Origin: Lactobacillaceae bacterium AF64-9pH9TA
Lineage (GTDB): Bacteria > Bacillota > Bacilli > Lactobacillales > Lactobacillaceae
NCBI GenBank assembly: GCA_027681045.1
Contig: JAQDCK010000011.1
Location: 1 to 43,695 of the forward strand
Direction: 5' to 3'
Length of the DNA stretch: 43,695 bases
The notes under the pieces are model-generated. The model was not told the origin of the DNA and made no database searches. It saw only the letters and a list, made by a program, of their open reading frames with translations. This document shows positions 31,328 to 34,203 of this stretch, one piece after another (position 1 is the stretch's first letter; the number at the start of each line of letters is the position of its first letter). A program made the position numbers and the translations under genes.

Positions 31328-32830
31328 CTATTTATGCAAGCTGACTCTTCCTTTGGCGACTGCCTCAATAAAGGCCTGGTCGTGGTCAACCAGGAGCATA
31401 GCCGGCTGCTCTTTTTTCAGCAGCTTGATCAGCTGGTCCTGGTTGAAAAGGTCCAGGTAGTTGGCCGGTTCATCCCAAAGGTAGAGGCTGGCTTCCTCAG
31501 TCAGGGACTTGGCCAGGGCCACCCGCTTCTTTTGCCCCTGGCTCATCTCCTCAATCTTTTGCTTAAAGGCTTCCCGCTCCAGGCCTAATTTTTTCAACTG
31601 GTTTAAAAAGTTTTCATAGTCCAGGTCATGCTCTTTGGCAAAAGCCGGCAGATAGCCCCGGTAAGCCGACAAATCTTGGGGCAGGTAACTGATTTTAAGC
31701 CCCGTCTGCAAGTCCCAGTCCCCCTGGCAGGTAAAATTCTTATTGCCCAAGAGCCAGGCCAAAAAGCTGCTCTTGCCGCTGCCATTTGGCCCGGTCAAAG
31801 CCACAATGCCGCGGCTGGCGATTGCTAAATTCAGCCCTTGAAACAAGGTCCTGCCGGCAATCTCTAAGCTAAGATTCCGGCCGGTAAAAAGGGTCTGGTG
31901 GTAATCGGCTTTAAAATTCAAGTTTAATGCCGGAGCCTCTTCAATATTGGACAAAAGGCCCTGCTTAGCTGCCTCTTCTTTTTTCTGCCGGCGGGCCACA
32001 TTTTTAGCCCGCTTCATCACTTTGGCCGCCCGCTTACTCAAAAAGCCCTTGTCCAAGAGCTCTGCCTTGCGGTCAGGCTTGATTTTCCCTTTGGCGTGGA
32101 TGCTGCTCTCTGCCTTATGGGCATTGGCCGCCAGCTGCTTTTGACTTTTTTCCAGGCTCTTGATCTCCCGGCGCAGCTGCTGGTCTTTCTCTTGATTAGT
32201 CTGGTCGCGCTGCTTTTTGGTCGCCTGGTAGCCGGTAAAATCATCCCGGTATAGGTGAATTTCTCCGTTTTCCAAGGCCAGGACATGATCGCTGACTTCT
32301 GCTAAAAAAGTCCGGTCGTGGCTGACCACGATGTAGCCGGTCTTGGATTTTTTCAGATACTCAGCTACTTCCTGGCGGCTGGCACCGTCTAGGTGGTTGG
32401 TCGGTTCATCCAGCAAGGGGAAAACGCCATCTTGACTAAAGGCCAGGGCTAAAAGCAGCTTGCTCTGCTCTCCCCCGCTGAGCTGGCCAAAGGGCTGGTA
32501 GAGCAAGTCCGGACTCAAGTTCAACCGGTTCATTTCTTTTTCCAGGCGCCAGAGTTCAAAAGTTGCTTCATCCTGCAGGCTGAAGTAAGCCGCCTCATCT
32601 TTTGGCAAAAAGCGGGGGTAGTAGGTAAAATTCAAAGGAGACTTGACTGCCCGCCGGTCGCCCAATTGCCCGGCCAAAAGACGGAGAAAGGTCGTCTTGC
32701 CCCGGCCATTTCGGCCAACCAGGGCCAGTTTCCAGCTGGAATCCAGGTCCAAAGAGAGGTCGGTAAAGATTGCTTCTGCCTGGCTGGGGTAAGTGTAGGA
32801 AAGGTGCGTAATCTGAATTGCTGTCATCAT
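31328..32830 (-). CDS. ABC-F ribosome-protection ATPase (Lsa/Msr-type)
   Basis: A 500-aa soluble protein with two ABC domains and no membrane segments. Domain 1: LVGRNGRGKTTF, LSGGEQSKLLLAL, LLDEPTNHLDG. Linker (about residues 210-300): basic, coiled coil, with LLDKGFLSKRAAKVMKRAKN, as in antibiotic-resistance ABC-F proteins. Domain 2: ALTGPNGSGKSSF, MSQGQKKRVALA, LWDEPANYLD. These factors enter the ribosomal E site and free drug-blocked ribosomes. Which drugs cannot be told. The ATG at 32830 follows immediately after the TAA of an upstream leader ORF, with GAGG 5 nt upstream. A leader with a terminator suggests drug-inducible attenuation. Confidence 0.9.
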   Translation of the reverse strand: MMTAIQITHLSYTYPSQAEAIFTDLSLDLDSSWKLALVGRNGRGKTTFLRLLAGQLGDRRAVKSPLNFTYYPRFLPKDEAAYFSLQDEATFELWRLEKEMNRLNLSPDLLYQPFGQLSGGEQSKLLLALAFSQDGVFPLLDEPTNHLDGASRQEVAEYLKKSKTGYIVVSHDRTFLAEVSDHVLALENGEIHLYRDDFTGYQATKKQRDQTNQEKDQQLRREIKSLEKSQKQLAANAHKAESSIHAKGKIKPDRKAELLDKGFLSKRAAKVMKRAKNVARRQKKEEAAKQGLLSNIEEAPALNLNFKADYHQTLFTGRNLSLEIAGRTLFQGLNLAIASRGIVALTGPNGSGKSSFLAWLLGNKNFTCQGDWDLQTGLKISYLPQDLSAYRGYLPAFAKEHDLDYENFLNQLKKLGLEREAFKQKIEEMSQGQKKRVALAKSLTEEASLYLWDEPANYLDLFNQDQLIKLLKKEQPAMLLVDHDQAFIEAVAKGRVSLHK

Positions 32831-32920
32831 TTATACCTCGAAAAGAAAAAAGAGAGTCTGCACCCCTGCAATGAACAGACTCTCCGCGGCAAAAGCAGCG
32901 TCAATCTTGCAAAAGTGCAT
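32831..32920 (-). CDS. Leader ORF 2 of the ABC-F gene, 29 codons
   Basis: On the minus strand AAGGGGG, 5 nt, ATG starts a frame MHFCKIDAAFAAESLFIAGV then QTLFFLFEV, ending at a TAA directly followed by the ATG of the ABC-F gene. It runs straight through the terminator hairpin at 32852-32884, so a ribosome translating it would melt the terminator, and termination of translation would deliver ribosomes to the ABC-F start. Whether the peptide itself matters is unknown. The upstream continuation of this open frame (to 33049) has no SD and overlaps leader ORF 1 in another frame. Confidence 0.55.
   Translation of the reverse strand: MHFCKIDAAFAAESLFIAGVQTLFFLFEV
32852..32884 (-). terminator. Attenuator terminator in the ABC-F leader
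   Basis: GAGAGTCTG, a 15-nt loop and CAGACTCTC, followed by TTTTTTCTTTTC on the minus strand, between the promoter and the ABC-F start at 32830. A terminator in front of a gene that has only this promoter indicates conditional read-through. Confidence 0.85.
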
Positions 32921-32992
32921 AGTAACCCCCTTGACCGCGCAGCAAATAAAGCTGCTTGAATCATGATGGTTGCCTGTGAAAAATGCAAGATT
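32903..32992 (-). repeat. Inverted repeat in the ABC-F leader linking ORF 1 to ORF 2
   Basis: AATCTTGCA (32984-32992, minus strand) and TGCAAGATT (32903-32911) are perfect 9-nt complements. The first arm overlaps the stop codon of leader ORF 1, the second lies within leader ORF 2 and about 19 nt before the terminator stem. A ribosome paused on ORF 1 would cover the first arm and change downstream folding. A shorter hairpin (GCAGC/GCTGC, 32940-32956) lies in the loop. Confidence 0.6.
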
Positions 32993-33002
32993 ACAGACGC
33001 AC
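32991..33002 (-). CDS. Leader ORF 1 of the ABC-F gene: three codons, Met-Arg-Leu, stop
   Basis: GTG CGT CTG TAA on the minus strand, 8 nt downstream of a consensus SD AAGGAGG (33011-33017). It is the first initiation site in the transcript. The sequence fMet-Arg-Leu equals the start of the MRLR element that makes the ErmD leader peptide stall with macrolides and ketolides. Its stop overlaps the inverted repeat at 32984-32992. A three-codon ORF is well below normal gene size, so the evidence is the SD, its place in a leader with a terminator, and the motif. Confidence 0.55.
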   Translation of the reverse strand: MRL

Positions 33003-33039
33003 CGCTTTCGCCTCCTTTTCGCGTAATTATTTGCCTTGT

Positions 33040-33069
33040 ATACTAGCATAATGTGCAGAGAAGAAGCAA
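33040..33069 (-). promoter_or_regulatory. Promoter of the ABC-F leader transcript
   Basis: Minus strand: TTGCTT (33064-33069), 18 nt, TGC-TAGTAT extended -10 (33040-33045). It shares AAAGGCTTGC and TGCTAGTATA with the oppA promoter near 43540. Transcription would begin about 30 nt before leader ORF 1. Confidence 0.6.
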
Positions 33070-33228: not shown

Positions 33229-34203
33229 ATGTGTACGGCAATTACTTTCGCAACTGATGACCACTACTTTGGCCGTAATTTGGACTTGAACTTTTCTTAC
33301 AATGAAACAGTCACTATCACTCCAAGAAACTATGTTTTCCCAATGAGGAAAGTGCCGGACTTAAGCAGCCACTACGCCATCATCGGCATGGCGACGGTTG
33401 TCGGCGACTACCCGCTTTACTATGATGCCGTTAATGAAGAAGGTCTGGGCATGGCCGGCTTGAACTTCCCGGGCAATGCCCACTACTTCCCTAACCAAGA
33501 AGGCAAGGACAACATTACTTCCTTTGAATTCGTCCCATACATTCTGGGGACCTGCAAGAGCGTGACTGAAGCCAAGGAAGCCTTAAAGAAGATCAGCATC
33601 TCAGCTGAAGACTTTTCAAAGGACTTCCCAACCAGCCCCCTGCACTGGATGATTGCCGACAAAGACTCCAGCATCGTGGTTGAATCAATGGAAGACGGCC
33701 TGCACATTTATGACAACCCAGTCGGCGTCATGACCAACAACCCGCCATTCCTAATTATGAAGTTTGCTTTGAACGACTACTACGCCCTGTCAGCTCACCC
33801 CTTGGACCACAAGTTTGCTGACGGCGTTGAATTGACTGAATACTCTCGCGGCATGAGCAGCTTAGGCCTGCCAGGCGACTTGTCCAGCAAGTCCCGCTTC
33901 GTCCGCTGCGTCTTCACCAAGTACAACAGCCTCTGCGACAAGGATGAAGCCAGCTCAGTCAACCAGTTCTTCAAGATCCTGGGTTCAGTTGAACAAGTCA
34001 AGGGCCTGTGTGAAGTTAGCCCGGGTGAATACGAGTACACCATCTACTCATCCTGCATGAACCAAGAAAAGGGGATCTACTACTACACCACCTACGGCAA
34101 CCCGGAAGTTCATGCCGTTGACATGCACAAGACTGACCTGGATGGCAAGGAACTGACCAGCTACAAGCTGCAAAAAGACCTGCAATTCCACTTCGACAAC
34201 TAG
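33229..34203 (+). CDS. bsh: Choloylglycine hydrolase (bile salt hydrolase-like Ntn hydrolase)
   Basis: A 324-aa Ntn-family amidase that begins MCTAITF, so removing Met1 exposes the nucleophile Cys2. Other active-site residues of the bile salt hydrolase family appear in order: R16 and D19 (FGRNLDLNF), N79 (GMAGLNFPGN), N170/N171 (VMTNNPPF) and R223 (KSRFVRCVF). The likely reaction is removal of glycine or taurine from conjugated bile acids; a penicillin V acylase is the main alternative and shares these residues. No signal peptide, so it is cytoplasmic. SD AGGAGGT precedes the ATG. It is a single-gene unit converging with phoR. Confidence 0.9.
   Translation: MCTAITFATDDHYFGRNLDLNFSYNETVTITPRNYVFPMRKVPDLSSHYAIIGMATVVGDYPLYYDAVNEEGLGMAGLNFPGNAHYFPNQEGKDNITSFEFVPYILGTCKSVTEAKEALKKISISAEDFSKDFPTSPLHWMIADKDSSIVVESMEDGLHIYDNPVGVMTNNPPFLIMKFALNDYYALSAHPLDHKFADGVELTEYSRGMSSLGLPGDLSSKSRFVRCVFTKYNSLCDKDEASSVNQFFKILGSVEQVKGLCEVSPGEYEYTIYSSCMNQEKGIYYYTTYGNPEVHAVDMHKTDLDGKELTSYKLQKDLQFHFDN

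Follow-up and report, generated by a model that had tools for sequence, protein, structure and literature searches.

The leader of an Lsa-like ABC-F gene on the minus strand of the analysed stretch of DNA (43,695 nucleotides; hereafter, the window) contains a three-codon upstream open reading frame (uORF), GTG-CGT-CTG-TAA, which very probably serves a ribosome-mediated transcription attenuator induced by peptidyl-transferase drugs that hold the ribosome on the start codon or immediately downstream of it. The sequence displays a conserved uORF, three mutually exclusive helices with paired changes, and a computed switch in the nascent RNA. Translation of the uORF, stalling, the identity of the drugs, induction, and resistance itself are what we infer.

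All leader features are on the minus strand. The Shine-Dalgarno sequence (SD) AAGGAGG of the uORF (33017-33011) is followed by an 8-nt spacer, GTG (33002-33000), CGT (32999-32997), CTG (32996-32994), and TAA (32993-32991), so that positions 33020-32991 read GAAAAGGAGG-CGAAAGCG-GTG-CGT-CTG-TAA. The uORF (32991..33002) would encode Met-Arg-Leu. An initial annotation of this DNA had placed the SD and the uORF at these coordinates before an ABC-F gene; the coordinates are correct, and the uORF sits in the leader of the Lsa-like gene. Further upstream, inspection by eye suggests a putative extended -10 element, TG-C-TAGTAT (33040..33045), and a weak putative -35 element, TTGCTT (33064..33069), which is absent from the pattern-scan list. 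TG-N-TANNAT blocks resembling the putative extended -10 element occur at the equivalent place in the leaders L008, L009, and L010. The transcript start would fall at about 33037-33032.

The downstream gene (31328..32830, minus strand) is intact and encodes an ABC-F ribosomal protection protein of 500 residues. Its best NCBIfam match is ABCF_Lsa_all, with a score of 529.7 bits against a model cut-off of 750 (NF000167); the score for the broader ribo_prot_ABC_F model is 409.9 bits, above the cut-off of 380. Among solved structures, Lsa(A) is the closest (7nhk, E 1.7e-128). Because the score is below the ABCF_Lsa_all cut-off, the gene is named Lsa-like rather than Lsa. Relatives mostly align from residue 2; therefore, translation may begin at the second ATG (32827), which is preceded by an SD, GAGG (32839-32836). 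The divergent neighbour (33229-34203, plus strand) encodes a choloylglycine hydrolase family protein (PF02275, E 1.6e-102). The nearest of the genomes compared (G001; 28% of sampled words shared, ~190 contigs) has no match to the protein at E <= 1e-40 and none to the leader at E <= 0.001; therefore, close relatives of the source species may differ in whether they carry the gene.

Three close homologues of the ABC-F protein are 95%, 86%, and 78% identical. In their leaders (L008, L009, and L010), GGAGGCGAAAGC with the SD is kept, the start codon is GTG, TTG, and TTG, codon 2 is CGT, codon 3 is CTG, CTA, and CTG, and the stop codon is TAA. The start codon is exchanged only for other start codons, and the third codon changes only synonymously. 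Alignment of related leaders was the check proposed in the initial annotation, and it finds the SD and NTG-CGT-CT(G/A)-TAA in all three.

The wider comparison covers three sets from protein searches. The genus search covered 75 genomes, 44 of them with matches at E <= 1e-40; with matches lacking the N-terminus left out, the genus set comprises 59 upstream regions including the window. The family set comprises 301 genomes, of which 138 match at E <= 1e-90 (101 of 132 new matches examined), and the order set 295 genomes, 89 with a match (best 20 of 65 new matches examined). TTG-CGT-CTT-TAA or TTG-CGT-TTT-TAA is present in 31 of the 59 genus leaders. Other genus variants are MRL with CTG or CTA, MRF with TTC or CGC, MRI (L020), MRN (L017, L037, L058, L063), MKF (L061, L062), MLL (L040), and a two-codon MR (L057). 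GTG (the window, L008, L066) and ATG (L059, L060, L063) are the rarer starts, and the longer uORFs are MRYLILQ (L031), MRSLIF (L047, L054), and MKKANR (L064). No such uORF is seen in L021, L024, and L045 of the 59, and L016 ends at the contig end.

A strict motif, SD followed by [ATG]TG-(Arg/Lys)-X-TAA with a position between -340 and -100, occurs in 94 of 160 Lsa-like loci (genus 48/59, family 46/101) versus 8 of 3,200 dinucleotide-shuffled versions of these upstream regions, counts that overstate independence because the leaders are related. The motif is present more often than expected by chance. Among the 94 loci, the start is TTG in 88, GTG in three, and ATG in three; the peptides are MRL (23), MRN (20), MRF (18), MKF (11), MRI (9), MKI (6), MKN (5), MKM (1), and MKL (1), with Arg spelled CGT, CGC, or AGA and Lys spelled AAG or AAA.

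An open scan of 180 loci, accepting every NTG, codon 2, and stop codon after an SD, gives 144 matches in 122 loci (genus 49/59, family 53/101, order 20/20). The first base is T in 116 matches, G in 14, A in 14, and C in none, and codon 2 is Arg in 72, Lys in 43, His in 15, and another residue in 14. All 15 His matches are [AG]TG-CAC-TTT, a second NTG within the 3' strand of the hairpin SL1 described below. When one ORF is taken per locus, with preference for a basic codon 2 (L036 is mis-chosen, at its second NTG), the start is TTG in 113 of the 122 loci and codon 2 is basic in 112. Each of the 20 order loci (best 20 of 65) has a TTG-started three-codon ORF, with Lys as codon 2 in 18 and Asn in two. 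The scan finds no SD with a three-codon ORF in 58 of the 180 loci, which include longer or two-codon uORFs, SDs below the pattern, and leaders without any. The absence of C as first base and the basic codon 2 in several spellings point to selection on the start codon and the basic residue. A short uORF with an SD is thus kept in relatives upstream of an ARE-ABCF gene.

In one enterococcal genus (L197-L213, partly the same genomes as the order set; L197 is the same locus as L186), TTG-AAA-AAT-T(A/G)A is present in 17 of 17 leaders. None of these 17 leaders, which precede LsaA-like genes in a set that has E. faecalis outside it, contains the published LsaA consensus MAGN. In each, an overlapping ORF of two codons is present as well (start GTG or ATG, one further codon, stop TGA). 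Three enterococcal proteins were considered as E. faecalis lsaA and none was accepted, the LsaA match being only 751-771 bits.

TTG-CGT-CTT-TAA also occurs on named plasmids of Ligilactobacillus salivarius, Limosilactobacillus reuteri, and L. amylovorus (L190, L191, L192), before ABC-F genes 53-54% identical to that of the window; the Limosilactobacillus reuteri locus adjoins an IS3 transposase gene. Leader and ABC-F gene are together on these plasmids; therefore, the gene seems to carry the switch along when it moves. Named plasmids of E. raffinosus and E. gilvus carry TTG-AAA-AAC-TAA, and one of Latilactobacillus curvatus carries a longer TTG-started uORF, MKIAC. By the scan, lsa(E) of E. 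faecium, also on a plasmid (L196), has no three-codon uORF; the sole ORF detected is one of six codons with an ATG start at -366.

The uORF lies in the 5' strand of SL1 (32888..33012), a predicted anti-antiterminator hairpin identified from the window fold and from pairing over 43 leaders. In its lowest helix, GGCGAAAGC (33012-33004) pairs with GCTTTTGCC (32896-32888). The helix through the uORF pairs GCGTC (33000-32996) with GACGC (32902-32898), the next helix pairs AATCTTGCA (32992-32984) with TGCAAGATT (32911-32903), and the fold places an upper helix near 32978-32968 with 32927-32918. The initial annotation had described an inverted repeat with one arm over the stop codon; the AATCTTGCA/TGCAAGATT repeat does overlap it, but the helix covers the entire uORF, not the stop codon alone.

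The SL1 3' strand TGCACTTTTGCAA (32919-32907) is also the 5' strand of a 13-bp antiterminator, as judged from alignment and fold. Its partner TTGCAGGGGTGCA (32871-32859) lies inside the loop and 3' arm of the terminator, and the duplex has a free energy of -17.0 kcal/mol. ACAGGC (32977-32972) was considered as the antiterminator and dropped for the 13-bp pairing supported by the alignment. The predicted intrinsic terminator, GGAGAGTCTG...CAGACTCTCT with a U-rich run (32841..32885; arms 32885-32876 and 32860-32851; hairpin, -16.2 kcal/mol), lies between the uORF and the ABC-F start (32830) and is identified by sequence, fold, and pairing over 43 leaders. It is missing from the pattern-scan list of the window; the loop limit of the scan is 8.

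Pairing was assessed on an alignment (A1) of 43 genus leaders including the window. Left out were L016 (contig end), L021, L024, and L045 (no uORF seen), L064 (the longer TTG-started MKKANR), L061 and L062 (MKF, missed by the regular expression), L029, L050, and L056 (duplicates), and the divergent L017, L037, L047, L059, L060, and L063. For the antiterminator, 94.7% of cells are paired and 15 cells are changed on both sides, compared with 30-61% and 1-8 cells in slid controls; the covariation is 0.214 versus 0.172 +/- 0.006 for shuffled alignments. For the terminator, 96.4% of cells are paired and 34 are doubly changed. For SL1, counted over 18 pairs with the two lowest helices excluded, 92.1% of cells are paired versus 29-43% in slid versions; its 12 doubly changed cells are not above those of slid versions (8-14), and the support for SL1 is therefore mainly the percentage paired. 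The leaders are related, and doubly changed cells are not independent events. A model with 10 pairs only (R1) finds L017, L037, L047, L054, L057, and L058 at E below 1e-5 and L060 at 0.079; it does not find L059, L061-L064, L021, L024, and L045. Rfam gives no match at gathering score in the window and, over the leader, a single sub-threshold miRNA match (20.5 bits versus 70).

The free minimum-energy fold of the window leader (-77.9 kcal/mol) contains SL1 and the terminator together with an outer helix; forcing the antiterminator gives a fold of -67.6 kcal/mol. When the uORF is masked as by a ribosome stalled at the start codon, codon 2, or codon 3, the minimum-energy fold contains the antiterminator. 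At full-length equilibrium over the 43 leaders, the antiterminator exceeds 0.5 in five leaders with the start mask and in eight with the codon-3 mask, compared with 0/43 unmasked and 0/43 when the loop is masked as a control. Both switching sets include the window, whereas L008 is in the codon-3 set only, and L009 and L010 are in neither. Switching at full-length equilibrium was rejected, as masking the uORF still leaves the terminator ahead in most leaders.

Folds of the nascent RNA were computed for 40 leaders (L039, L054, and L058, in which no canonical terminator is aligned, are out). With the 3' end at columns 243-249, the antiterminator is dominant in 37-40 of 40 masked leaders versus 0-2 of 40 unmasked. 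At column 239, it is dominant in 28/40 and 36/40 under the two masks. At column 254, the terminator is ahead again, in 33/40 with the start mask and 31/40 with the codon-3 mask. The equilibrium folds mostly stay unswitched and the nascent folds switch; therefore, the switch must be kinetic, with capture during transcription. Pairing and nascent folds both indicate a mutually exclusive antiterminator that an occupied uORF would free. To take in loci outside the genus, each locus was also scored, without an alignment, for a single strand that can pair with the uORF region and alternatively with downstream sequence. In 107 of 122 loci (genus 45/49, family 44/53, order 18/20), no more than 1 of 40 shuffles attains this score; the score of the window is attained by 0/40 and that of L010 by 5/40. 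Ribosome-mediated attenuation, as the initial annotation had proposed, fits these results: the ORF is conserved as an ORF and lies within an SL1/antiterminator/terminator switch that has paired changes and flips in the nascent folds.

In the mechanism we propose, ribosomes would, without drug, complete Met-Arg-Leu and depart, and SL1 would close over the uORF. Closed SL1 would hide its own 3' strand, the terminator would form, and the ABC-F gene would stay silent. With a drug of the lincosamide, pleuromutilin, or streptogramin A type, which acts on the peptidyl transferase centre immediately after initiation, the ribosome would be held on the uORF and SL1 kept open. The SL1 3' strand could then capture the emerging terminator loop and 3' arm, and RNA polymerase would read into the ABC-F gene. 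By analogy with published three-codon ABC-F leaders, the drugs and the stall position would be the same here.

The SD-like and stop sequences could instead be by-products of SL1, in an attenuator that senses a direct ligand, pausing, or the general speed of RNA polymerase with the uORF untranslated. The uORF and part of the SD are indeed inside SL1, and part of the SD and TAA conservation could be structural because both lie in or beside it. We consider this improbable, however: the absence of CTG from the 144 open-scan matches and the varied spelling of the basic codon 2 argue against it, as do the persistence of the ORF in family and order loci with differing leader sequences and the lack of an Rfam family match.

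The initial annotation had linked Met-Arg-Leu to the MRLR element of the ErmD leader peptide and to macrolides and ketolides. In this rival reading, the leader would be a macrolide or ketolide sensor with an MRLR-like start as in ErmD, nascent peptide and drug acting jointly in the tunnel. The window does encode Met-Arg-Leu, MRL is more frequent (23 of 94) than any other tripeptide, and MefAL and ErmDL contain MRLR (PMC10314930). Residue 3 among the 94 is, however, also F (29), N (25), I (15), or M (1), and M-R-L-stop is without the second basic residue of the '+x+' arrest motif (Arg/Lys-X-Arg/Lys) of the ErmDL/MefAL type (PMC10314930). Moreover, the nearest characterised relatives are Lsa-type proteins, and erythromycin gave no stall at the three-codon uORF of are5sc (PMC12421871). 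The tie to macrolides and ketolides is therefore not upheld. The six-codon MsrDL stalls at its UAA stop codon with erythromycin (PMC10314930); therefore, the sequence leaves room for a macrolide response here, which we nevertheless regard as very improbable.

It is scarcely credible that the sensor is instead a second leader ORF (ATG 32920, SD AAGGGGG, 29 codons, MHFCKIDAAF...). In its favour, SD-like purines precede NTG-NAC-TTT in many genus leaders and L009 differs at three Ala third positions; against it, length and frame vary (MHF, MHFCQD, MHFWQD, VHF, and MYF, each then a stop), L054 has ATA at the start, and conservation of the start follows from its place in a helix strand. This ORF spans 32831-32920 (minus strand), over the SL1 3' strand and the terminator, and ends at the ABC-F start. 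The synonymous changes of L009 and the short leader matches (about query 147-182) at first favoured it as a coding unit, but it was rejected: both fall within the SL1 3' strand, and leaders do not share the reading frame. In many genus leaders, NTG-NAC-TTT often meets an immediate stop, and helix conservation would account for it at least in part.

If the drug-induced attenuator holds, lactic acid bacteria from food and the gut would have Lsa-like genes, some plasmid-borne, that are inducible through a minimal sensor; therefore, uninduced tests could understate resistance. The common TTG start and the basic second residue make these loci a ready collection for probing the requirements of a three-codon sensor. 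A more speculative and rather doubtful extension is that UUG-(Arg/Lys)-(Asn/Leu/Phe/Ile)-UAA defines an unreported class of Lactobacillales Lsa-like sensors with the weak UUG itself as the tuned part, which would hold basal ribosome occupancy low, so that only a drug-frozen initiation complex would persist for the time needed to expose the antiterminator strand.

Three-codon ABC-F leaders are already known, also with TTG. The initial annotation had stressed that such a sensor would be extremely short, but this is not new: MIN of vmlR, MR[I/M] of cplR, MK[L/Q] of vmlR2, and MLV of are5sc are published, with experiments for vmlR, cplR, and are5sc. In the excerpts of open-licence PMC text, we found no description of Lactobacillales Lsa-like uORFs beyond the computed LsaA consensus MAGN, and none of the broad TTG-(Arg/Lys)-X-TAA consensus with its antiterminator. 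The LsaA uORF likewise lies in the leader of the nearest characterised ABC-F family, but its consensus has four residues (PMC10201436). uORF4u offers alternative starts as an option (PMC10219788); therefore, an ATG-limited search would miss TTG uORFs, though to name such a search as the source of MAGN would be a guess. More generally, searches restricted to ATG or to longer ORFs would miss sensors of this kind.

The B. subtilis vmlR leader has the same arrangement of a uORF in SL-1, an alternative antiterminator, an intrinsic terminator, and an ABC-F gene (PMC9226507). Its three-codon uORF(MIN), with the SD, lies within SL-1, which acts as anti-antiterminator; expression under lincomycin almost disappears when the start codon or the SD is lost (PMC9226507). 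In contrast to the window, vmlR has an AUG start, MIN/MDN/MDK/MRK tripeptides, and an ARE2 gene, and adds NusG pausing and an SD-sequestering SL-4 (PMC9226507). C. difficile cplR, with uORF(MRI) and the consensus MR[I/M], shares Met-Arg-X-stop and a terminator before a pleuromutilin/lincosamide/streptogramin A ABC-F gene; the start mutated there is AUG, the gene is ARE1, and the terminator stem also hides the main SD (PMC10201436). S. coelicolor are5scL1 has three codons (MLV) and the TTG start that is common in the Lactobacillales relatives, but it belongs to an actinobacterial ARE5 gene, and its codon 2 is Leu (PMC12421871). At are5scL1, LSAP drugs stall the ribosome at the start codon and erythromycin does not, the toeprint template of the main figure being AUG-mutated (PMC12421871).
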